Positions 5,021-62,687 of a DNA stretch of 64,000 nt are shown piece after piece. The notes beneath the pieces are model-generated. The model made no database searches. It saw nothing but the letters and a program-made list of their open reading frames with translations, and was not told where the DNA came from. The stretch comes from Microvelia longipes. Taxonomy: Eukaryota; Arthropoda; Insecta; Hemiptera; Veliidae. The DNA is taken from the NCBI GenBank assembly GCA_018340805.1, contig JACMZG010001913.1, positions 34,896,423 through 34,960,422 of the forward strand. Direction: 5' to 3'. Positions within the stretch are counted from its first letter, which is position 1. Each line of letters starts with the position of its first letter. Made by a program: the position numbers and the translations under genes.

Positions 5021-8000
5021 CTGGGATTTCGATCACGCAAGAATGACTAACCCAGTAAATCACACAAAGTAAGAACTTATGCAATATGTCCTAGAAGAAT
5101 TTAAAGTAGAAACACAAGGTTTTTCTCGTTTTCCACGTTAAAATGCAAACATAACAACCTGCTTCTATTGCCTGAACATGTTAGGAATAGAAATAGATTG
5201 AAACAAATCTGCCGATTGCTTCTACATTCTTGATGGAAATCGCTTATTTCTCTAATGTTATTGTTTAAAGCGTATTTAAGCGCTTAAAACGATCAAAATA
5301 AGCATGAAAATCACTATTTTAATAACTGGATTTCGATCAGAGAACCACAGTAAATCACACAAAGTACAACTTATGTAATATGTCTGGAACGAATCTAAAG
5401 TAGAAAACCAAAGTTTTCTCGTGTTTCCCACGTCTAAAATGCATGAAATAACACTGTTCTATTGCTGAACATTGTTAGGAAATAGATTGAAACAAATCTG
5501 CCGATGCTTCTACAATTCTTGATGGAAAATCGCTTATTTCTCTAATGTTATTGTTTAAAGCGTATTTAAGCGTTTAAAACGATCAAAATAAGCATGAAAA
5601 TCACTATTTTAATAACTGGATTTCGATCAGAGAACCACAGTAAATCACACAAAGTACAACTTATGTAATATGTCTGGAACGAATCTAAAGTAGAAACCAA
5701 AGTTTTCTCGTGTTTCCCACGTCTAAAATGCATGAAATAACACTGTTCTATTGCTGAACATTGTTAGGAAATAGATTGAAACAAATCTGCCGATGCTTCT
5801 ACAATTCTTGATGGAAATCGCTTATTTCTCTAATGTTATTGTTTAAAGCGTATTTAAGCGTTTAAAACGATCAAAATAAGCATGAAAATCACTATTTTAA
5901 TAACTGGATTTCGATCAGAGAACCACAGTAAATCACACAAAGTACAACTTATGTAATATGTCTGGAACGAATCTAAAGTAGAAAACCAAAGTTTTCTCGT
6001 GTTTTCCACGTCTAAATGCATGAAATAACACTGTTCTATTGCTGAACATTGTTAGGAAATAGATTGAAACAAATCTGCCGATGGCTTCTACAATTCTTGA
6101 TGGAAATCGCTTATTTCTCTAATGTTATTGTTTAAAGCGTATTTAAGCGTTAAAACGATCAAAATAAGCATGAAAATCACTATTTTAATAACTGGATTTC
6201 GATCAGAGAACCACAGTAAATCACACAAAGTACAACTTATGTAATATGTCTGGAACGAATCTAAAGTAGAAACCGAAAGTTTTCTCGTGTTTCCACGTCT
6301 AAAATGCATGAAATAACACTGTTCTATTGCTGAACATTGTTAGGAAATAGATTGAAACAAATCTGCCGATGCTTCTACAATTCTTGATGGAAATCGCTTA
6401 TTTCTCTAATGTTATTGTTTAAGCGTATTTAAGCGTTTAAAACGATCAAAATAAGCATGAAAATCACTATTTTAATAACTGGATTTCGATCAGAGAACAC
6501 AGTAAATCACACAAAGTACAACTTATGTAATATGTCTGGAACGAATCTAAAGTAGAAAACCAAAGTTTTCTCGTGTTTCCACGTCTAAAATGCATGAAAT
6601 AACACTGTTCTATTGCTGAACATTGTTAGGAAATAGATTGAAACAAATCTGCCGATGGCTTCTACAATTCTTGATGGAAATCGCTTATTTCTCTAATGTT
6701 ATTGTTTAAAGCGTATTTAAGCGTTTAAAACGATCAAAATAAGCATGAAAATCACTATTTTAATAACTGGATTTCGATCAGAGAACCACAGTAAATCACA
6801 AAGTACAACTTATGTAATATGTCTGGAACGAATCTAAAGTAGAAAACCAAAGTTTTCTCGTGTTTTCCACGTCTAAAATGCATGAAATAACACTGTTCTA
6901 TTGCTGAACATTGTTAGGAAATAGATTGAAACAAATCTGCCGATGCTTCTACAATTCTTGATGGAAAATCGCTTATTTCTCTAATGTTATTGTTTAAAGC
7001 GTATTTAAGCGTTAAAACGATCAAAATAAGCATGAAAATCACTATTTTAATAACTGGATTTCGATCAGAGAACCACAGTAAATCACACAAAGTACAACTT
7101 ATGTAATATGTCTGGAACGAATCTAAAGTAGAAAACCAAAGTTTTCTCGTGTTTCCCACGTCTAAAATGCATGAAATAACACTGTTCTATTGCTGAACAT
7201 TGTTAGGAAATAGATTGAAACAAATCTGCCGATGGCTTCTACAATTCTTGATGGAAATCGCTTATTTCTCTAATGTTATTGTTTAAAGCGTATTTAAGCG
7301 TTTAAAACGATCAAAATAAGCATGAAAATCACTATTTTAATAACTGGATTTCGATCAGAGAACCAGTAAATCACACAAAGTACAACTTATGTAATATGTC
7401 TGGAACGAATCTAAAGTAGAAAACCAAAGTTTTCTCGTGTTTTCCACGTCTAAAATGCATGAAATAACACTGTTCTATTGCTGAACATTGTTAGGAAATA
7501 GATTGAAACAAATCTGCCGATGCTTCTACAATTCTTGATGGAAATCGCTTATTTCTCTAATGTTATTGTTTAAAGCGTATTTAAGCGTTTAAAACGATCA
7601 AAATAAGCATGAAAATCACTATTTTAATAACTGGATTTCGATCAGAGAACCACAGTAAATCACACAAAGTACAACTTATGTAATATGTCTGGAACGAATC
7701 TAAAGTAGAAAACCAAAGTTTTCTCGTGTTTCCCACGTCTAAAATGCATGAAATAACACTGTTCTATTGCTGAACATTGTTAGGAAATAGATTGAAACAA
7801 ATCTGCCGATGCTTCTACAATTCTTGATGGAAATCGCTTATTTCTCTAATGTTATTGTTTAAAGCGTATTTAAGCGTTTAAAACGATCAAAATAAGCATG
7901 AAAATCACTATTTTAATAACTGGATTTCGATCAGAGAACCACAGTAAATCACACAAAGTACAACTTATGTAATATGTCTGGAACGAATCTAAAGTAGAAA

Positions 8001-11000
8001 ACCAAAGTTTTCTCGTGTTTTCCACGTAAAATGCATGAAATAACACTGTTCTATTGCTGAACATTGTTAGGAAATAGATTGAAACAAATCTGCCGATGGC
8101 TTCTACAATTCTTGATGGAAATCGCTTATTTCTCTAATGTATTGTTTAAAGCGTATTTAAGCGTTTAAAACGATCAAAATAAGCATGAAAATCACTATTT
8201 TAATAACTGGATTTCGATCAGAGAACCACAGTAAATCACACAAAGTACAACTTATGTAATATGTCTGGAACGAATCTAAAGTAGAAAACCGAAGTTTTCT
8301 CGTGTTTCCACGTCTAAAATGCATGAAATAACACTGTTCTATTGCTGAACATTGTTAGGAAATAGATTGAAACAAATCTGCCGATGGCTTCTACAATTCT
8401 TGATGGAAATCGCTTATTTCTCTAATGTTATTGTTTAAAGCGTATTTAAGCGTTTAAAACGATCAAAATAAGCATGAAAATCACTATTTTAATAACTGGA
8501 TTTCGATCAGAGAACCACAGTAAATCACACAAAGTACAACTTATGTAATATGTCTGGAACGAATCTAAAGTAGAAAACCAAAGTTTTCTCGTGTTTCCCA
8601 CGTCTAAAATGCATGAAATAACACTGTTCTATTGCTGAACATTGTTAGGAAATAGATTGAAACAAATCTGCCGATGGCTTCTACAATTCTTGATGGAAAT
8701 CGCTTATTTCTCTAATGTTATTGTTTAAAGCGTATTTAAGCGTTTAAAACGATCAAAATAAGCATGAAAATCACTATTTTAATAACTGGATTTCGATCAG
8801 AGAACCACAGTAAATCACACAAAGTACAACTTATGTAATATGTCTGGAACGAATCTAAAGTAGAAAACCAAAGTTTTCTCGTGTTTCCCACGTCTAAAAT
8901 GCATGAAATAACACTGTTCTATTGCTGAACATTGTTAGGAAATAGATTGAAACAAATCTGCCGATGCTTCTACAATTCTTGATGGAAATCGCTTATTTCT
9001 CTAATGTTATTGTTTAAAGCGTATTTAAGCGTTTAAAACGATCAAAATAAGCATGAAAATCACTATTTTAATAACTGGATTTCGATCAGAGAACCACAGT
9101 AAATCACACAAAGTACAACTTATGTAATATGTCTGGAACGAATCTAAAGTAGAAAACCAAAGTTTTCTCGTGTTTCCCGTCTAAAATGCATGAAATAACA
9201 CTGTTCTATTGCTGAACATTGTTAGGAAATAGATTGAAACAAATCTGCCGATGGCTTCTACAATTCTTGATGGAAATCGCTTATTTCTCTAATGTTATTG
9301 TTTAAAGCGTATTTAAGCGTTTAAAACGATCAAAATAAGCATGAAAATCACTATTTTAATAACTGGATTTCGATCAGAGAACCAGTAAATCACACAAAGT
9401 ACAACTTATGTAATATGTCTGGAACGAATCTAAAGTAGAAAACCAAAGTTTTCTCGTGTTTCCCACGTCTAAAATGCATGAAATAACACTGTTCTATTGC
9501 TGAACATTGTTAGGAAATAGATTGAAACAAATCTGCCGATGGCTTCTACAATTCTTGATGGAAATCGCTTATTTCTCTAATGTTATTGTTTAAAGCGTAT
9601 TTAAGCGTTTAAAACGATCAAAATAAGCATGAAAATCACTATTTTAATAACTGGATTTCGATCAGAGAACCACAGTAAATCACACAAAGTACAACTTATG
9701 TAATATGTCTGGAACGAATCTAAAGTAGAAAACCAAGTTTTCTCGTGTTTCCCACGTCTAAAATGCATGAAATAACACTGTTCTATTGCTGAACATTGTT
9801 AGGAAATAGATTGAAACAAATCTGCCGATGGCTTCTACAATTCTTGATGGAAATCGCTATTTCTCTAATGTTATTGTTTAAAGCGTATTTAAGCGTTTAA
9901 AACGATCAAAATAAGCATGAAAATCACTATTTTAATAACTGGATTTCGATCAGAGAACCACAGTAAATCACACAAAGTACAACTTATGTAATATGTCTGG
10001 AACGAATCTAAAGTAGAAAACCAAAGTTTTCTCGTGTTTCCACGTCTAAAATGCATGAAATAACACTGTTCTATTGCTGAACATTGTTAGGAAATAGATT
10101 GAAACAAATCTGCCGATGGCTTCTACAATTCTTGATGGAAATCGCTTATTTCTCTAATGTTATTGTTTAAAGCGTATTTAAGCGTTTAAAACGATCAAAA
10201 TAAGCATGAAAATCACTATTTTAATAACTGGATTTCGATCAGAGAACCACAGTAAATCACACAAAGTACAACTTATGTAATATGTCTGGAACGAATCTAA
10301 AGTAGAAAACCAAAGTTTTCTCGTGTTTCCCACGTCTAAAATGCATGAAATAACACTGTTCTATTGCTGAACATTGTTAGGAAATAGATTGAAACAAATC
10401 TGCCGATGGCTTCTACAATTCTTGATGGAAATCGCTTATTTCTCTAATGTTATTGTTTAAAGCGTATTTAAGCGCTTAAAACGATCAAAATAAGCATGAA
10501 AATCACTATTTTAATAACTGGATTTCGATCAGAGAACCACAGTAAATCACACAAAGTACAACTTATGTAATATGTCTGGAACGAATCTAAAGTAGAAAAC
10601 CAAGTTTTCTCGTGTTTTCCACGTCTAAAATGCATGAAATAACACTGTTCTATTGCTGAACATTGTTAGGAAATAGATTGAAACAAATCTGCCGATGCTT
10701 CTACAATTCTTGATGGAAATCGCTTATTTCTCTAATGTTATTGTTTAAAGCGTATTTAAGCGTTTAAAACGATCAAAATAAGCATGAAAATCACTATTTT
10801 AATAACTGGATTTCGATCAGAGAACCACAGTAAATCACACAAAGTACAACTTATGTAATATGTCTGGAACGAATCTAAAGTAGAAAACCAAAGTTTTCTC
10901 GTGTTTCCCACGTCTAAAATGCATGAAATAACACTGTTCTATTGCTGAACATTGTTAGGAAATAGATTGAAACAAATCTGCCGATGCTTCTACAATTCTT

Positions 11001-11931
11001 GATGGAAATCGCTTTTTCTCTAATGTTATTGTTTAAAGCGTATTTAAGCGTTTAAAACGATCAAAATAAGCATGAAAATCACTATTTTAATAACTGGATT
11101 TCGATCAGAGAACCACAGTAAATCACACAAAGTACAACTTATGTTATGTCTGGAACGAATCTAAAGTAGAAAACCAAAGTTTTCTCGTGTTTCCCACGTC
11201 TAAAATGCATGAAATAACACTGTTCTATTGCTGAACATTGTTAGGAAATAGATTGAAACAAATCTGCCGATGGCTTCTACAATTCTTGATGGAAATCGCT
11301 TATTTCTCTAATGTTATTGTTTAAAGCGTATTTAAGCGTTTAAAACGATCAAAATAAGCATGAAAATCACTATTTTAATAACTGGATTTCGATCAGAGAA
11401 CCACAGTAAATCACACAAAGTACAACTTATGTAATATGTCTGGAACGAATCTAAAGTAGAAAACCAAAGTTTTCTCGTGTTTCACGTCTAAAATGCATGA
11501 AATAACACTGTTCTATTGCTGAACATTGTTAGGAAATAGATTGAAACAAATCTGCCGATGCTTCTACAATTCTTGATGGAAATCGCTTATTTCTCTATGT
11601 TATTGTTTAAAGCGTATTTAAGCGTTTAAAACGATCAAAATAAGCATGAAAATCACTATTTTAATAACTGGATTTCGATCAGAGAACCACAGTAAATCAC
11701 ACAAAGTACAACTTATGTAATATGTCTGGAACGAATCTAAAGTAGAAAACCAAGTTTTCTCGTGTTTCCACGTCTAAAATGCATGAAATAACACTGTTCT
11801 ATTGCTGAACATTGTTAGGAAATAGATTGAAACAAATCTGCCGATTGCTTCTACAATTCTTGATGAAATCGCTTATTTTTCTAATGTTATTGTTTAAAGC
11901 GTGTTTAAGCGTTTACAACGATCAAAATAGC
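5020..11931. repeat. Tandem satellite array, ~288-bp monomer, ~24 copies
   Basis: The phrase TTTCGATCAGAGAAC recurs 23 times, at 5331, 5621, 5909, 6197, 6484, 6772, 7059, 7349, 7636, 7925, 8212, 8501, 8791, 9080, 9368, 9656, 9944, 10233, 10523, 10811, 11099, 11387 and 11673. A damaged copy starts near 5022. Spacing is 286-290 bp. Monomers are nearly identical; differences are almost all one- or two-base indels in short runs (GGC or GC in the CGATGGCTTC phrase, TTTCCC or TTTTCC, AAAACC or AAACC). No higher-order periodicity is evident from these variants. Open frames on the minus strand across the monomer are by-products of the repeat, not genes. Confidence 0.97.
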
Positions 11932-11975
11932 NNNNNNNNNNNNNNNNNNNNNNNNNNNNNNNNNNNNNNNNNNNN
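11932..11975. other. Assembly gap of 44 N
   Basis: A run of N bases ends the satellite array in mid-monomer (the array breaks off within the phrase ATCAAAATAGC). The true array length at this locus is therefore unknown. Confidence 1.
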
Positions 11976-12180
11976 CAACTCTGAAGCATAAATACACTGA
12001 AAGCATTGATGATGCAAATACAACACATAAGGAAAGCAAAGGCAGACACATTCAAACACTCAAATATATATACACATACATACATGCAAACAAAAAAATT
12101 TGTAAAACACCTGAAACAAATAATTTTAGTGACATCCTGGTTTTGGATTTTTTTCCCAAATATAAAACTTTCCCAATATA
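11976..12180 (+). repeat. Interspersed repeat family A, 3' part
   Basis: The text after the gap (CAACTCTGAAGCATAAATAC, then AAAACACCTGAAACAAATAA and a T-rich end) follows the same order as the 3' part of the better preserved copy at 41420-41620. The two small overlapping ORFs here, on opposite strands, are products of this repeat and the N run. The 5' part is lost in the gap. Confidence 0.7.
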
Positions 12181-42641: not shown

Positions 42642-42787
42642 GCGTTCGGGGGAATGACAGCCACGATGCAGTTCGTCATTCCGTTCTTTGTAATAACATT
42701 TTGCTACGTCAAAGTTTCCGTTAAACTAAACGACAGAGCTAGAAGTAAACCAGGAGCTAAAACCAGCAGGAAGGAAGAGGCTGATAG
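42642..42787 (+). CDS. RYa-R: RYamide/NPY-like receptor, exon with TM5
   Basis: This exon of a class A GPCR encodes 48 codons plus two bases, between acceptor TTTTGTTTCAG and donor GTAAACC. The peptide starts AFGGMTATMQFVIPFF, which is TM5, and ends in the third intracellular loop with SVKLNDRARSKPGAKTSRK. The loop words KLNxRARxKPGxK and EEADR are, to my knowledge, typical of insect RYamide receptors, relatives of the neuropeptide F receptors; an NPF receptor is the main alternative. The receptor should sit in the plasma membrane of neurons or gut cells and signal through G proteins. The upstream exons (start, TM1-TM4, DRY motif) were not found in the window. The split codon AG|A joins exactly to the next exon. 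Confidence 0.85.
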
Positions 42788-47190: not shown

Positions 47191-47607
47191 GAATTGTTCA
47201 GATTTTAAAACATATTTATATAAATTTCAAATATTGAAATTTATATCATTTCTCGGGTGACAAGTCTTGTTCTCGTGTGATGTTAAGAGTCTCGAGCGTC
47301 ACAAGGGTTGGTGACTGCGTTCCCCTTTAATTGTGACGTGGGGTAGTTTAACAAAATATATTATTATTAAAATAAATAATTAAGGTATTACTATACCTTA
47401 ATATTGTATTTTTACTATTATTATTAGATATTTAAGTAAGATACCTAGAAAGTTGTTACGGTCCATAAGTTGTCTAATTAAAAAGTAACAAAAAATTAAA
47501 TTACAAATCACAATCATGTTTTATCAAACATTTTCGCGTAAATATGTTTCTTAAATTATCTGTTGGTTGTTTACCTAAGATGAAACTTACTCAAAATTGT
47601 TATTCAG

Positions 47608-47857
47608 ACGGCCTGGTTTCAGGGAAAGAAAAAGAAGAACAAACAGAATGCTGATTGCAATGGTGCTCATCTTCGGAATATCATGGCTTCCGCTCAACCT
47701 CATCAATTTTATCAACGACGTTTACATCCAGACAGGTCTTTGGTCCTACTATTATTTAACCTTCTTCATGGTCCATGCCCTAGCCATGTCATCTACTTGT
47801 TACAATCCGTTCCTATACGCATGGCTAAATGATAATTTTAGAAAGGAATTCAAGCAG
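47608..47857 (+). CDS. RYa-R: RYamide/NPY-like receptor, exon with TM6-TM7
   Basis: Exon of 250 nt between acceptor ATTGTTATTCAG and donor GTAAAC. After completing the split Arg codon it reads RPGFRERKRRTNRM (end of the third loop), then TM6 (LIAMVLIFGISWLPLNLINF, the WLP form of the CWxP switch), an extracellular loop with GLWSYY, and TM7 (FFMVHALAMSSTCYNPFLYA with NPxxY as NPFLY). It closes with helix 8 (WLNDNFRKEFKQ). All class A features expected for this part are intact. The phrase STCYNPFLYAWLN and the HALAMSS lead-in favour the RYamide receptor over the NPF receptor. The four residues RPGF before the basic stretch look like an extra insertion relative to the forms I remember. Confidence 0.92.
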
Positions 47858-49060
47858 GTAAACTTTATGGTAATAATCTAATTTTTGAATTACTTAAGTG
47901 TGGCCCTGTTTTTACCGTATGGAAATATTTATAACTCCTAATTGAAACCCAAAAATTTTAGTTTTTCACTTTATTTCATAGATTTCCTTATATTTACTAC
48001 CTCAATCAAATACCTCATTCTTTTCCTAAATTATAATCTGTTCTGAACTAGGTAGGTTTTCTACGATTGACTGTTTAGGTCATCGAATAAAACAGACGAT
48101 ATGAAGGTAACATAATTTCGCTTCATTTGAAATAATCTTTCTGATAGTAAGATACAAAGTGTTGAATTATCTAACTCAGATTCCGTACCGCTAAAGCCTC
48201 TCTCTATTTTTTAGAATTTAAATAATAAATAGATGTGATGATTTCGCTGCGTCAGCATGTTGTACAGTACCAGATTAATTCACCAGACTTGTAGTTCTCT
48301 CACTCTACTCTATGGATCAATAAGATCTCTGACCAAATAATTCCACAAATCATATAACGCGGAAAATCACTCTTTAGCTTCCGGACTATTAAGAATGAAT
48401 TTTTCACTTGATTTACCTTTCACAAGAAAGACCTTTAGATTAGGTTTGAGAGGAATAGGAGAACAGTTTGTTTAACCTCTAATAAGTAGCCCATTTCTTT
48501 GGTTCCTTAGTAACTAAAATAGCGTACGTACGTAACACTATTACCATACCAAGTGTCGCTGAAGTAAAGTTAACAAATATCGCCCTGTATGGAAAGAGAA
48601 CCGAAAACGGAATAGGAGTTTGTATTTACAGGGAGAATGTAATGCGATGTAATGAATTGATGACGCAGCCGATCAAAAAAGTAGAAGTAAAACTTTAATG
48701 ATTGAAGTTCTTCATATTCAACTTGAGACCAATTTACAATAACTTTTTGTAAACAAGGTCATAACGTTGATAAACTATGTAAAGACGGACCAATATTACG
48801 ACTAAATGATAGTTTAGTGATTTTTTATCCTAATCGAAAATCAAATTCTTGAATTTAGAAAAACTTACATTTGTACTTATATCAGCTGAGTATGAGATCC
48901 TTAAAAATCCAAATGCATGTTTTTTTTATTTCCTAAGAACCTTGTTCCAAATTTCCAAGAGTGGTTCCTCGATTTATATTCCTATTATTTGTTTTATTCC
49001 ACTCCCATCTCTTACAGTTAGTTAAAGTAATCATAAAATAAAGTACAACTTCACTTACAG
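47858..49060 (+). other. Receptor intron (1.2 kb)
   Basis: From donor GTAAAC to acceptor CACTTACAG. No repeat copy and no other gene seen. Reading through the donor gives VNFMVII and a stop, so unspliced RNA would truncate the receptor after helix 8. Confidence 0.85.
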
Positions 49061-54414: not shown

Positions 54415-54740
54415 AAGCGCAATTACATGTTGTCAATGAATGATAGAGTGGGTGCAATTAAATGTTGTTCAAAATTGATAGAGTGTGGGTGCAATTAAAT
54501 GTTGTTAAAAAATTGATAGAGTGTGGGTGCAATTAAATGTTGTTCAAAAATTGATAGAGTGTGGGTGCAATTAAATGTTGTTAAAAAATTGATAGAGTGT
54601 GGGTGCAATTAAATGTTGTTAAAAAATGATAGAGGTGGGTGCAATTAAATGTTGTTTAAAAAATTGATAGAGTGTGGGTGCAATTAAATGTTGTTCAAAA
54701 AATTGATAGGGTGTGGGTACAATTAGATGTTGTTCAATGA
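54415..54740. repeat. ~39-bp minisatellite, ~8.5 copies
   Basis: The unit has GGGTGCAATTAAATGTTGTT followed by C/T, an A run and TTGATAGAGTGT. The units differ mainly in the length of the A run and one C/T exchange. The first and last units are diverged. Confidence 0.97.
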
Positions 54741-55934: not shown

Positions 55935-58150
55935 TCCTGAATTCCTTTTTTGAATTCAATTTGCCAAATACAAATAAATATTCAACTATACAATACGGGA
56001 ATATACAAATAAAAGAATACATATCTGTATCAAATAATGTATAGATAAACAAAGCTGGACTTGGGATTTATTATATCAGACATAAAAAAGGTTGTTTCCG
56101 TAGCCAGTTAACAGGAGCGCTAGTGTGTAATTTGCTAGTTTCATCAGTCAGCTACGAGAATACGCCACTGTCATCTTATTTTCAGCAAACTACTTCCGGC
56201 ACAAAACTGATTAATCTAAATATTAGCATTATATAATAATGACCAATTTCAAGGAAATAATCGTAAAAATGTGTGGAAGGTGGCGTTATAACCTTTTTTA
56301 CCAGCCCAAATCTATAAACACATATTACACTATTGATTCGTTAAAACTTAAGTCTATCTTGGTATTCTGAATTCAACAGAAATAGGCATTGTACAGGTTA
56401 ATTGGTCGGTTTTAATATTTGAAAATAAATAATAGATAAAGGATGAAATTTAGTGCAAACATTTTATTTTTATAGAGTATTCTTTATTTATTATTTTGTT
56501 TTTTACATTTTTTGTGTTTAGTATAAACTTTTATCTATTTCTTGTTTTATTATTCCCTTATTTGTCCTATATATTTTTTTGTTTACTTATATAGAATATG
56601 CAAACTTTATGTGGTTTAATAATAGTAAAACCTATTTGCTTTATAGAGACTAAAAAATGGCAAAACGACTATTTATTTTTTCTTGGGATAAACTCAATTA
56701 ACTTTTTATTTATCTAGAATAGATTTATGTTATGATTGTTATTGCTTTAGGACAGCATGACAATCCAATATATCCATGTAGATTTAAATATTATTCTTAC
56801 TGAGGCAATGTTTGATTTTGATTCTCCTATTTAAACAAAAATATCTTTTATCAACCTTTTAATTTTTATAAATTAAACTGTAGGTATAAAGAAAAATTCT
56901 TGCTCGATAGTCCGCATGTCGGGCGAATTTCCTGTGAAATGCGTGTTTTCGAGATCAACATTTCTTTCCTTGCTTAAGGATACGGTTCATGCTTTATTAC
57001 CTGAGAAGTTATTCAATTATCAATCACTGCTCGTAACTCATTTTTTAGTATTTTTCAAAGGATATGAGCATAATTATTCTTTTGGTTATACAAAACTTTT
57101 CCTCTAAAATTGGCAGTGCCCACCATTATTTGCACTGGTTTAATGCTCAGTTAGTTTCGGGGTTGGTTTCTTTAAAGGTTTTAGTTTTACTTTGAAAAAT
57201 TACTTTTTGGTCACAAAGTGGTCACAAAATTCAATTTAGCGCCCCAAACAACATAAATAATAACCTTTATTGCTACGAAAAATATGAAATTAAATTTAAC
57301 CTATTTAAAAAACCGGTAATACAGTAAACCGGGTTAATGACGTCACAAAAACCTGGTTATCAATAAGGTTCGTGTCCTTTCTCAAGGTTAATTTTTGTAT
57401 CAAGTGTGATTAAAAAATAATAACACCTTCAAAAGATAGCGTGTTGACAAGGAAGTGTCAAGAAGTAATGGAAATCTACCGGAGTTAGCTTATGAGTTTT
57501 CAGCATCGGTCCACCGCAGCGCTGATTTTTAGTAGCTTGCGAAAATCGAATCCAAACGTTTTCCCATTTAAGTTACCCTCTCCCCCCCCCCTCCTAGGCA
57601 TAATCCGCTATCTCACACAAAATGGCAGAAGGAAAGTAATATTGCTGATTTTACCCAAATGAATGTTGATTCAACTCGTTTTAAAGTTTGTGTTAAAATA
57701 TACGAGGTTACATATTTTGCACAAATAATCACAGTACAAGTCCTCTAATTTGAATTAAAATATTTCTATAATTGTTCAAATCTATTTATAAACCATATAA
57801 GGAGTATACATTATCTTAAAAGTAATACTAAGAAAATATTTAAAATGAATTCAAAAGTATTTAAATTAGTTTTTGAGTTTCTGCAGATTATTATTTACTT
57901 GGAAGGACTGTTTGTTTAAAACTCCATCATTTCTAATTTAAACTCTGTGGAAACTTTATTAGTTTCTAGACTTAGTTAAAACTATTGTTTGCAGCATATT
58001 TTGAGAACACCTCAAAGTTTAGATTACAGCCGTGAGCAATTTTCTTCACTAATTTGTGCGTAACAATTTGCAGAATATAAGTATAAAAATAAGAAACAAC
58101 TTCAATACAGGAAAGTAATGATGGTTTAGTCTAGTTAGTTTTCTGAGGGG
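55935..58150. other. Intergenic DNA, no supported gene
   Basis: 56090-56300 is a GC-richer patch (CGTAGCCAGTTAACAGGAGC) of unknown nature. 56878-56935 weakly recalls the 3' edge of family A. 57575-57600 has a C-run. The 63-codon ORF at 56916 is not supported. Confidence 0.45.
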
Positions 58151-58401: not shown

Positions 58402-59874
58402 TCATCCCTCACATTTAATCTTGGAGGAGGATATAGCTGATTCACTAATGTCTAATTTCATGAACTCGGAGAAATCAATTTCTGATGTTCGCCTCTCATC
58501 TGTTCTATTACTTGATGATTGATGAGGTTTAAATTTTGATGAAAAATGTCGAAGAACTTTTGGAGAGTACGTGAAGTCTAATCCAACGATCATGTGACGA
58601 TCTTTATACACATTACCTATTATGTTAGCTACGTAATTTAATTGGTTTAGTGTGTATAGTCGACGAGGAATAGCGAGACGTAATAATTCTACGTTGTGGA
58701 ATATTGGTTTTCCCTGAGAATCCTCTTTACCAAACATAACGCTTCCAATTTCACACGTTCTGACTCCTCCTTCAATGTATATCTGACAAGCGAGTGCGTG
58801 AGCTGGGAATTGATGTTGAGGAACATGTGGTGCAAATTTTGCACCATCTATGTACACAGCATGTCCACCAGGTGGTTCCACTATTGGTACACCTTGATTA
58901 CGTAATAGTTCACCAAGATAAGCAATACTTTCTATTCTGTGTTGTAAATAATTTTCATCAATAACTTCTTCTAACCCTTGGGCGACTGACTCCAATTCTC
59001 TTCCTGTCATTCCACCGTAAGTGGTAAAACCTTCTGTCAGTATGAGTAAATTTCTACATTTTTCCTCTAGCTCCGCATCTTTCAAAGATATCCATCCACC
59101 CGAATTACTTAATCCATCCTTCTTGGCACTCATTGTTGTGCCATCGACGTAAGAAAACATCTTGTTACAAATTTCTAAAATCGATTTGTTTTTGTATCCT
59201 TTTTCTCGTGTTTTAATAAAGTAAGCATTCTCAGCGAAACGGCAAGCGTCGAAGAAAAACATAATTCCATTTTCTTTGCAAATTTTTGAAACTTGTTCTA
59301 TATTTTCCATAGAAACAGGTTGGCCCCCGGCAGAGTTATTTGTTATCGTTAGAACAACTAAAGGTATGTTTTCTTTACCTTTAGAGTGTATGAACTCTTT
59401 CAGTGCGGATATGCTAATGTTTCCTTTGAACGGAGCGTACGAAGTAAGAGGAGCACAATCATCAAGAAGATCAACAGCTGTTGCTCCAGTACTTTCAATA
59501 TTTCCTCTTGTAGTGTCAAAGAACGAATTAGCTACACAATATGTCCCTTTACCTCCTAAAATGGAGAAAACAATTCTCTCTGCCGCTCTGCCCTGATGTG
59601 TTGGGAAAATGAATTTGTGCTGAGTTATCTTTTTTACAGCACTATCGAATTTAAAATAACTACTAGCACCTGCATAACTTTCATCTGCCAACATCATAGC
59701 ACTCCACTGCTGAGCACTAAGCGCTGATGTTCCACTATCAGTTAGTAGATCTATGAGAACATCTTCAGCTTTGATATTAAATAAATTATAGTCTGCTTTT
59801 TTTAATATTTCCTTCCTTTCTTCCACAGTCGTATTTTTAATCATTTCAACTGTTTTAATTTTGTATGGTTCCAT
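58402..59874 (-). CDS. tnaA: Tryptophanase-type beta-eliminating lyase (490 aa)
   Basis: PLP enzyme of the tryptophanase / tyrosine phenol-lyase family; the predicted reaction is L-tryptophan to indole, pyruvate and ammonia in the cytosol. Motifs run in family order over nearly the whole length: MEPYKIKTVE at the start, IDLLTDSGT (41-49), THQGRAAER (92-100), FFDTTR (118-123), TNNSAGGQPVS (178-188), DACRFAENAYFI (209-220), MSAKKDG (248-254; Lys252 the expected PLP lysine), TYGGMTGRE (285-293), GGHAVYID (336-343), LLRLAIPRR (397-405). Asp120, Ile376 and His443 sit where tryptophanase has Asp, Ile and His and tyrosine phenol-lyase has Thr, Arg and Phe. Residues from about 450 form a Ser-rich tail beyond the normal end. 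The CDS is intact and intronless. Start: the ATG at 59872-59874, 8 bases behind a 3' splice site; the in-frame TTG further up lies in the presumed intron. A bacterial origin is likely. Confidence 0.93.
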   Translation of the reverse strand: MEPYKIKTVEMIKNTTVEERKEILKKADYNLFNIKAEDVLIDLLTDSGTSALSAQQWSAMMLADESYAGASSYFKFDSAVKKITQHKFIFPTHQGRAAERIVFSILGGKGTYCVANSFFDTTRGNIESTGATAVDLLDDCAPLTSYAPFKGNISISALKEFIHSKGKENIPLVVLTITNNSAGGQPVSMENIEQVSKICKENGIMFFFDACRFAENAYFIKTREKGYKNKSILEICNKMFSYVDGTTMSAKKDGLSNSGGWISLKDAELEEKCRNLLILTEGFTTYGGMTGRELESVAQGLEEVIDENYLQHRIESIAYLGELLRNQGVPIVEPPGGHAVYIDGAKFAPHVPQHQFPAHALACQIYIEGGVRTCEIGSVMFGKEDSQGKPIFHNVELLRLAIPRRLYTLNQLNYVANIIGNVYKDRHMIVGLDFTYSPKVLRHFSSKFKPHQSSSNRTDERRTSEIDFSEFMKLDISESAISSSKIKCEG

Positions 59875-59882
59875 TTTGTTTT

Positions 59883-59900
59883 CTGCAAACAAAAATTGAA
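59883..59900 (-). promoter_or_regulatory. 3' splice site before the lyase ATG
   Basis: On the minus strand TTCAATTTTTGTTTGCAG ends at 59883, eight bases before the ATG. The T-rich tract and CAG are a textbook eukaryotic acceptor. This implies a 5' leader exon at higher coordinates that I could not locate, and argues for a transcribed nuclear gene rather than bacterial contamination. Confidence 0.65.
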
Positions 59901-59949
59901 ATAAACTAATAACTATTAAAAAGCTTGATATCCCTTTATTCCTAATAAT

Positions 59950-60126: not shown

Positions 60127-60219
<93 letters not shown>
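60127..60219. repeat. Pure TA microsatellite (93 bp)
   Basis: Uninterrupted TA repeat at the 3' side of the minus-strand Penelope-like element. Confidence 0.98.
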
Positions 60220-60303: not shown

Positions 60304-61009
60304 ACGAAGAGAGACTGAACGGTAAAGATGAGATAGGATCTACATGAAATGGATTAGGAGGGGTATTAAGAGAGGTGGGGTTGGACCAATGGGAAGGAGG
60401 TATACTATATAGCACGGTACCGGACATGTACAGGAATAGACTTGCTCGAAAATACTCTATACGATCATACATTAATTTCACACCACGTACCGTCATAAAG
60501 ACATATTCAAAAATCAATCATTCGTACAAAATAAATACAAGGGAAATATCAAAAAATAAAAAGACAGGAAAAAATAAAATAAACAGAGAGGGAAATTAAA
60601 AATATATAATGAGAAGCTGAAAGAGGGAGTGAGGTGAAAAAGGAGAGAGTATACAAAGAAATAAAAAATATAATATAAAATAAAAATATGAAAACAATAT
60701 AAATAAAATGAATAAAAATATATAAGAAGGAAAATATAACTAAATGAAAATAAATGGTGAAACGTATGGAATAAGAAGAATAAAATAAAAAGGGAGGCTA
60801 TGTAAGTAAAAATAGGAAAATTTAAAATAAAATATAAATAAATAAGGAAATAATAATGATATTAAATAAATATAAATAAATAAGGAATAATAATGATATT
60901 AAACAAAATAATTAAATAATAAAAATAAATAAATAAATAAATAAATTAATAAAATAAAATAAAATAAAATAAAAAAAAAAAAAAAAAAAAAATAAAAATA
61001 AAAATAAAA

Positions 61010-62687
61010 ATAAAAGATAGACACTACTGTTTGTTGATGCCAGGGGGGAGTCGGGATTTGAGGACAAGCTGATGGCAATTTCCCAATTACGGCGGATAGG
61101 AGTAGGAGTGTCTTCAGGAAGTTTTTTTAGAACGCGAGCTTGGTAGAGGTCATTAAAAAGAGATGTTTGATGGGAACGAGCATGTACTGAAACGGGTAGA
61201 TCACTCCTCAAGTCCAAGCATGAGTTTCTATGATTGTTAATGCGTAGGTTTAAAGGAGTTGAAGTCTCCCCTACGTAGAAACAATCACATCGCCGACACT
61301 CAAGGCAATATACCACGTTTCTAGAAGTACAGTTAGAGGAAGAAGGGATTTGGTAGGAAACATTAGTGGAGGGACTGGTGAAGGTAGGAGAGGGGTTCAT
61401 CAAGGGACAGGTTAAGCAGCGCCTTCTATTGCAGGGATGGGAACCTCGAGGATGAGGTTGTGCCGGCGGAGAAGGAGGTTTGGTATTAACTAGGAGGTTG
61501 CGAAGGTTAGGGGGTCTTTTAAAGGTTACTGAAGGAGGTTTGGGTAGGAGGTCGGCTGTGGTAGGGTTTGAGGATAGAGTGGCGAAACCGTCTTTAAGGA
61601 AGGTATTAAGGATTCTAAGGCCAGGATAGTAGGTAGTGAAGAGGTAAAAAGCGGGAGGAGCAAGAGGGCGAGGAGGTCTAGGATGAAGAGATGCAGTGAC
61701 TTGGGCATTAACTATGTGGGAGGGATATCCTCGGGAAAGGAGAGAGGTCTTTAAGGAGACAATGTACCGATCAAGGAAGGCTTCATTGGAACAGATCCTG
61801 TTTCCTCTGAGACCAAGGGAAAATGGAATGGTTTTTTCTGGGAATGGGGATGGCAACTGTTAAAATGTAGGTACTGTTGGAGGTTAGTGGGTTTGATGTG
61901 AACTGCCGTCTCCAGTCTGTCACCCTGGATATAGACATCCACATCAAGGAACGTGACATGGGTTAGGGAGTATTCTGAGGTGAAGCGGATGAGGAAAAGG
62001 AGTTTAGATCAGATATAAATTTCTCAAGGGCAGGAAGGCCATGAGGCCATAGGAAAAATATGTCGTCGATAAAACGACGCCATAGAAGAGGTTGAAGGGA
62101 TTGGGATTGAAGGAAGAGGGTCTCAATTCTACCCATGAAGAGGTTAGCGTATGAAGGGGCTGCCCTGGTCCCCATCGCTGTACCCTTTATTTGGAGATAG
62201 TGTTTATCTTCAAACCTGAAATTGTTCAGTTCAAGAACAAATTTCGGTAAGTGAAGAAGGAAGGAGGTGGAAGGAATATGGGGCTTAGGACGCTGATCTA
62301 AGTAGAATCTAATGGCTTCAAGACCTTCAGAATGGGGGATGTTTGTGTAAAGGGAAGTGACATCAACAGTAACGAGGTATGTATTATTGGATAACGGAGT
62401 GGGGATATCACGGATAAGATCAAGGAAATGGTTGGTATCTTTGATATGGGAGGGTAAGGATTGGGAAATAGGTTGAAGAAAGGAATCAACGAAAGCTGAT
62501 ATTCTTTCCGTGTGACAGCCATAGCCAGCAAGGATAGGTCTTCCAGGACAAGGAAGGGGGGATCAACTTTTTTATGGATTTTTGGAAGAAGGTAAAGATG
62601 GGGTGTACGGGCTTTTCGGGGGTAAGGATATTGATTTCGGCATCAGAGAGACCTTCCAGAGGGCCTTGGGTAGCTAGGTAAGTAGAG
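61010..62687 (-). pseudogene. Penelope-like RT / GIY-YIG polyprotein, frameshifted
   Basis: In order on the minus strand: LTPEKP near 62600; VDVTSLYTN (62371-62340, first catalytic Asp); GTAMGTRAAPSYANLFMG (from 62184); RFIDDIFFLW with the catalytic Asp pair at 62067-62062; then FTSEYSLTHVTFLDV and LETAVHIKPTN; RGNRICSNEAFL near 61795; a Cys cluster PCNRRRCLTC; and the GIY-YIG domain (VVYCLEC, CFYVGET, NNHR, conserved Glu in NWEI) at about 61319-61060. The reading frame changes near 62560, 61985 and 61870. After SSVY the frame runs without a stop into the A-rich tail, so the last ~35 codons of the open frame are not protein. The element cannot make an intact protein. Confidence 0.88.

Follow-up and report, generated by a model that had tools for sequence, protein, structure and literature searches.

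The genome of the water strider Microvelia longipes carries, within the 64,000 nucleotides that we analyzed (the window: C564:34896423-34960422, on contig JACMZG010001913.1, here C564), an intact gene for a tryptophanase-type beta-eliminating lyase, and a second copy elsewhere. Quite probably, to judge from its sequence, this gene is a bacterial tryptophanase that was acquired by the water strider lineage, duplicated and kept under selection, with a product predicted to cleave tryptophan to indole. Events would have run as follows. A bacterial gene for tryptophan indole-lyase, whose donor was most likely related to the Melioribacter/Rosettibacter group, was taken up by the lineage; it gained eukaryotic signals, a probable intron in the 5' untranslated region (5' UTR) among them; it was duplicated to another chromosome; and both copies, A (in the window) and B, were retained under purifying selection. 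The predicted enzyme would be a cytosolic lyase, dependent on pyridoxal 5'-phosphate (PLP), that converts L-tryptophan by beta-elimination to indole, pyruvate and ammonia.

Copy A runs from ATG to stop through 490 codons, just as an earlier note, made from the letters of this DNA alone, had described it; coordinates are collected in the table below. It is one of two open reading frames (ORFs) of at least 150 amino acids in the window, counted with bacterial starts and closed ends. It scores 222.6 bits against the Pfam model Beta_elim_lyase, PF01212 (E 8.8e-66, cut-off 27), and 649.4 bits, full-length, against the NCBIfam model of the tryptophanase subfamily, NF009709 (cut-off 285). Because long frames are so rare here, and the scores so high, the frame is well beyond chance. 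Copy B scores 222.6 and 645.2 bits on the same two models, and these scores, together with the PLP residues, assign both copies to the tryptophanase/tyrosine phenol-lyase family; the core motifs of that family, also claimed in the note, are there. The best relatives of copy A among solved structures are bacterial tryptophanases and tyrosine phenol-lyases. GC content is low in copy A (0.37; 0.27 at third codon positions, GC3) and in copy B (0.38; GC3 0.31), which fits the AT-rich window, the comparison being with the window only and not with donors.

Copy A is integrated in a host chromosome, by the assembly, since the contigs are on the megabase scale, the surrounding stretch is free of gaps, and a nearby host repeat recurs on 11 contigs. 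The assembly comprises 664.6 Mb in 1470 contigs, of which C564 accounts for 42.86 Mb; the gene (C564:34954827-34956296, minus strand) and host repeats lie together on it. The sole run of Ns in the window is at 11932-11975, so that the remainder, some 52 kb beginning at 11976, with the gene in it, is free of gaps. The 11 contigs come from 40 matches scored (the query's own place included) of 2109 first-look candidates. Some 0.7 kb downstream of copy B, too, there is a stretch 81% identical to this repeat. That the two copies share a duplicated 3' flank was considered and rejected: the 155-bp match is the dispersed repeat, and is therefore no evidence of one.

Copy B, the one further match in the genome, lies on contig C518 (54.2 Mb). 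It is 83% identical to copy A in protein sequence, and its frame is intact, with 475 codons and its own stop. The DNA alignment of the two copies, 84% identical over 1452 columns, starts 26 bases upstream of the ATG, 15 upstream of the splice-like CAG discussed below, and ends in the tail. Over 473 codons, nonsynonymous divergence (dN, by the Nei–Gojobori method, NG86) is 0.092 and synonymous divergence (dS) 0.598, a dN/dS of about 0.15, and 51 differences fall at first codon positions, 38 at second and 133 at third. By this ratio and this pattern the enzyme is under purifying selection; the tail is under little, for dN and dS are 0.083 and 0.613 in the core of 450 codons and 0.29 and 0.33 in the last 23. 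The C-terminal tails (58402-58524 in the window; L002:2851-2928 for copy B) look unconstrained and end differently, at 490 and 475 residues. A dS of around 0.6 suggests that the duplication is old; at the rates usual in insects, uncalibrated here, it would date back tens of millions of years.

The residues expected to matter most have been kept. Among 95 comparison rows (77 genome loci and 18 proteins), 115 columns are near-invariant (a single residue in 97% of rows or more), and 108 of these are unchanged in both copies. Both retain Lys252, which we take to be the PLP lysine, and Tyr67, Arg96, Asn180, Asp209, Arg212 and Arg399, presumably all residues of the PLP site. Both also have Asp120, Ile376 and His443, as does E. 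coli TnaA, where the tyrosine phenol-lyase 9j3u has Thr124, Arg381 and Phe448; these, we assume, are the positions that separate the two enzymes. (A search of PMC11301627 for a residue comparison of the two found no mention of these residue names.) Identity as a tyrosine phenol-lyase was accordingly rejected: copy A reaches 522.2 of the 720.7 bits needed on TIGR02618, and the Thr/Arg/Phe substrate site is absent. Both insect copies score higher on the tryptophanase model NF053783 than on the tyrosine phenol-lyase model. Copy A is thus filed in the tryptophanase subfamily, and likely works, as predicted from sequence, like a tryptophan indole-lyase (EC 4.1.99.1). An AlphaFold model of copy A, built on a 27-row alignment, matches tyrosine phenol-lyase and tryptophanase structures; against 9j3u, 1c7g and 2ez1, Foldseek gives TM-scores by query of 0.84–0.85, at 43–45% identity. 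Beyond confirming the fold, the model has little to add, because confidence (predicted local distance difference test, pLDDT, mean 72.8) falls below 50 in segments that include 47–69, where Tyr67 lies, and the tail, 454–490.

Where organisms are named, the nearest proteins are bacterial, as one would expect of the horizontal transfer that the note proposed. The best 120 of 8000 candidates in a protein search are 61–66% identical to copy A, with Rosettibacter firmus first among the named, and the 15 of these 120 that carry an organism name are all bacteria of the Melioribacter/Rosettibacter kind. A second search, made with the divergent C-terminal part (residues 384–470), gave 108 matches from 135 candidates, 11 of them organism-named and all 11 bacterial; its reach was small, for it returned none of P0001–P0120, and its top match, P0241, is 53% identical over the whole length. 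In four trees the insect pair, the sole animal rows, cut to 452 residues and accompanied by no protist rows, sits among bacterial sequences. The pair joins the Melioribacter/Rosettibacter group as a 19-row set in a quick tree of 102 rows (Shimodaira–Hasegawa-like approximate likelihood ratio test, SH-aLRT, 95), and again in a careful tree of 45 rows (bootstrap/SH-aLRT 98/99), in one of 59 rows (100/99), and in one of 65 rows that takes in extra matches (81/99, not starred). For the 102-row tree, three of 80 loci without a long frame (L069, L077 and L078) were dropped, and 18 of P0001–P0120 were kept after thinning; the 45-row tree uses a hand-picked 25 of the 77 loci, to which the 59-row tree adds 14 loci and the 65-row tree 8, the last also including 12 of the 108 proteins from the C-terminal search.

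Both copies also show what may be a mark of eukaryotic life. Eight bases before the ATG of copy A there is a probable 3' splice acceptor, and a CAG stands at the same place in copy B; the 18-base tract preceding it is 72% pyrimidine in A and 67% in B. By a rough estimate, the chance of such a site within 12 bases of the ATG in both copies is 4e-4, on a threshold that was set after the sites had been seen. An acceptor-like site at the same place in both suggests a 5' UTR intron in each, so that ‘intronless’, the word used in the note, holds for the coding part and may not hold for the 5' UTR. Over the 400 bases upstream, the resemblance between the copies does not exceed that of shuffled sequences: identity is 0.486, against a mean of 0.498 for shuffles (maximum 0.526).

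Transfer from bacteria followed by selection, as the note had it, is therefore what we favor, because integration, a diverged second copy, the low dN/dS, the named bacterial matches and the four trees all speak for it. There is a good deal to set on the other side. Seven near-invariant positions are changed in both copies (residues 4, 52, 63, 293, 296, 398 and 411), and copy A falls below the isofunctional NCBIfam cut-offs for tryptophanase, with 547 of 750 bits on NF053783 and 459.5 of 825.8 on TIGR02617. These cut-offs mark narrow groups, since the relatives P0001, P0002, P0120 and P0242 fall below both and E. coli TnaA, above that of TIGR02617, falls below that of NF053783; activity on tryptophan is likely, then, rather than certified. 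For P0001, P0002 and P0120 the tyrosine phenol-lyase model even gives a better score than do the two TnaA models, which makes the substrate of this bacterial group uncertain. The sea anemone and fungus gnat enzymes studied by Yuasa reportedly have low activity on tryptophan. A long stem branch leads to the insect pair (1.38, 1.31 and 1.07 changes per column in the 102-, 45- and 65-row trees), and known animal and protist tryptophanases are absent from all four trees. Approximately unbiased (AU) tests keep positions of the pair just outside 17 rows of the Melioribacter group (p 0.379), outside a set of 35 from the wider group (p 0.196), and outside 43 rows on the Bacteroidota/Ignavibacteriota side (p 0.247); since these near-outside positions are not rejected, a donor related to the Melioribacter/Rosettibacter group is probable, and no firmer than that. 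Finally, the acceptor of copy B is just modestly pyrimidine-rich.

Some of these points lend themselves to another account, in which the acquired gene was kept while its function shifted, either to some other beta-substituted amino acid, such as the S-substituted cysteines, or to the reverse reaction, from indole to tryptophan. We think this unlikely on balance, and by no means far-fetched. The unmet cut-offs, the long stem and the seven changes common to both copies would all follow, as would the low turnover on tryptophan that metazoan enzymes are said to have; against them stand the three substrate positions and the PLP site, every one of the tryptophanase type. The tryptophanase of Blastocystis does favor the reverse reaction, according to PMC8448343.

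Less probable still, to our minds, is a single old transfer common to other animals, or spread from one eukaryote to another, of which the water strider gene would be a late survivor. Trees in which the insect pair is the only animal sequence leave room for it. The searches speak the other way, if softly: the matches at 61–66% are bacterial where named, and no animal-named row occurs among the best 120 of 8000 or among the 108 C-terminal matches, negatives that reach no further than the 120 listed and the 135 candidates scored, in a database whose known insect records are mitochondrial. That the gene is a pseudogene, or a relic yet to decay, is very improbable: the unconstrained tail is what one would expect of a relic, yet a dN/dS near 0.15 over 473 codons, at a dS near 0.6 and with both frames open, is not. 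Assembly artefact or bacterial contamination can scarcely be credited and was rejected, for although one mitochondrial-type contig, C809, looks foreign by eye and the sample is perhaps impure, the two copies have diverged and occupy separate large contigs, each has host-type repeats nearby, the stretches read are free of gaps, a splice-like site stands at the same place in each, the nearest relative (among the best 120 of 8000) is just 66% identical, and GC and GC3 in copy A are in line with the AT-rich window, the one sequence they were compared with.

How does the water strider gene, if acquired from bacteria and kept as a tryptophanase, compare with others? It shares its catalytic and substrate-site residues with the tryptophanase of Melioribacter/Rosettibacter (TnaA, EC 4.1.99.1), to which the insect copies are, over the core, 61–66% identical (best 120 of 8000); it differs in a shorter start (MEPYKIK rather than MKTIIEPFKIK), in a gap of one residue after residue 139, and in sitting in an animal genome. 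The tail, from the R-H-F motif to the end, is 49 residues long in copy A and 34 in copy B, whereas it is 10–25 in 89/95 rows (motif found). With tyrosine phenol-lyase (EC 4.1.99.2; 9j3u, 1c7g and 2ez1) the copies have the fold in common, but Asp, Ile and His in place of Thr124, Arg381 and Phe448. The metazoan tryptophan indole-lyases (Yuasa 2023; Boya 2021) are likewise bacterial-type tryptophanases in animals, though in other animals, which Boya 2021 lists. Protists such as Blastocystis, too, have acquired bacterial tryptophanase genes, according to PMC8448343 and PMC8537960, but they are microbial eukaryotes and their donors were different. The novelty of a tryptophanase in an animal was thus somewhat overstated in the note; the bacterial-type gene in an insect genome stands, as a further case of a rare and already reported class of animal gene. 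A limited search of the open-licence literature found no report of tryptophanase from true bugs; the sole co-mention with Heteroptera that it found was in a study of mealy-bug endosymbionts. The main text of PMC13389597 contains neither ‘tryptophan’ nor ‘lyase’, and the Gerris buenoi genome paper has no ‘indole’, and ‘horizontal gene transfer’ in two reference-list entries alone.

For animals, the kynurenine route is the main way of breaking tryptophan down. One that could also cleave tryptophan to free indole would have a second route, and with it a source of its own for a molecule that serves as a signal to microbes, plants and insects. Indole from dietary tryptophan could be a scent-gland product, and one may imagine a predatory insect of the water surface that makes its own by means of two acquired enzymes and employs it, either directly or as a precursor, in its scent or its defence. 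This is speculation, with the chances rather against it. In the Gerrinae, PMC3418494 says, the metathoracic scent gland is especially well developed, and unidentified chemical cues are thought to convey sex ratio. With two selected copies, in insects about whose scent chemistry little is known and which can be bred and are amenable to RNA interference, the question is a testable one. Seen at chromosome level, the gene would also be an instance of a metabolic gene that passed from bacteria to an animal, seemingly took on eukaryotic signals and was later duplicated. It should be of good interest to chemical ecology and to research on acquired genes.

Table. Features of the window (positions from its first nucleotide)
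Feature	Position	Strand	Basis and remarks
Coding sequence of copy A, tryptophanase-type beta-eliminating lyase, 490 amino acids	58402..59874	-	ORF (starts 59874, ends 58402), Pfam, NCBIfam, dN/dS, residue columns
Regions of copy A			Core, residues 1-450; variable tail, 451-490
Probable 3' splice acceptor of copy A	59875..59903	-	Tract 59886-59903, CAG 59883-59885, 8 bases to ATG
Possible polyadenylation signals ATTAAA, AATAAA	58157..58170	-	231 and 239 bases past stop; weak, AT-rich region
Dispersed host repeat	56890..57043	-	About 1.4 kb downstream of copy A stop; genome search
(AT)n microsatellite	60127..60219	.	Upstream of copy A
Broken pieces of a presumed Penelope-like element	60912..62562	-	Reverse transcriptase frame and weak GIY-YIG match
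Exon of rhodopsin-type peptide receptor	42642..42787	+	AG...GT borders read by eye; part of nearest recognized host gene
Open frame with presumed later exon of same receptor	47579..47881	+	Exon ends not set

The neighbors are of animal type, as the note had said, with one reservation. Two receptor exons, which we take to be parts of one gene, match 7tm_1 when joined (E 6e-20) and lie 10–16 kb from copy A. The reverse-transcriptase frame scores 32.2 bits on RVT_1 (cut-off 29.6), and the GIY-YIG match near it is weak (18.6 bits, cut-off 22.6); the label Penelope-like we take from the pairing of the two. The LINE is the reservation: it holds weakly, on a zf-RVT match of 18.8 bits (cut-off 27.5). 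A satellite array at 5049-11929, with 23.9 copies of a 288-bp unit and 98% matches, ends beside the run of Ns, and a smaller tandem repeat, with 8.4 copies of a 38-bp unit, occupies 54419-54734.

Mitochondrial-type sequences turned up elsewhere in the assembly. At C564:11661969-11708593 (L004–L006, L008 and L011), COX1 matches recur four times at intervals of about 15 kb, which looks like whole mitochondrial genomes in tandem, either a large nuclear insertion or mitochondrial sequence scaffolded into the contig. The COX1 copy in L004 (genetic code 5) matches that of Aquarius najas at 97% identity and those of Gerris gibbifer and others at 96%, which by itself would point to a water strider of the family Gerridae, probably subfamily Gerrinae; coming from a tandem array in a contig of chromosome size, this COX1 does not settle the species. 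A further mitochondrial-type stretch, on C809 (L007), has a COX1 match that is not insect-like, and other frames that resemble ND4 and ND5 by eye; its source may be a parasite, a symbiont or prey that was present in the sample.
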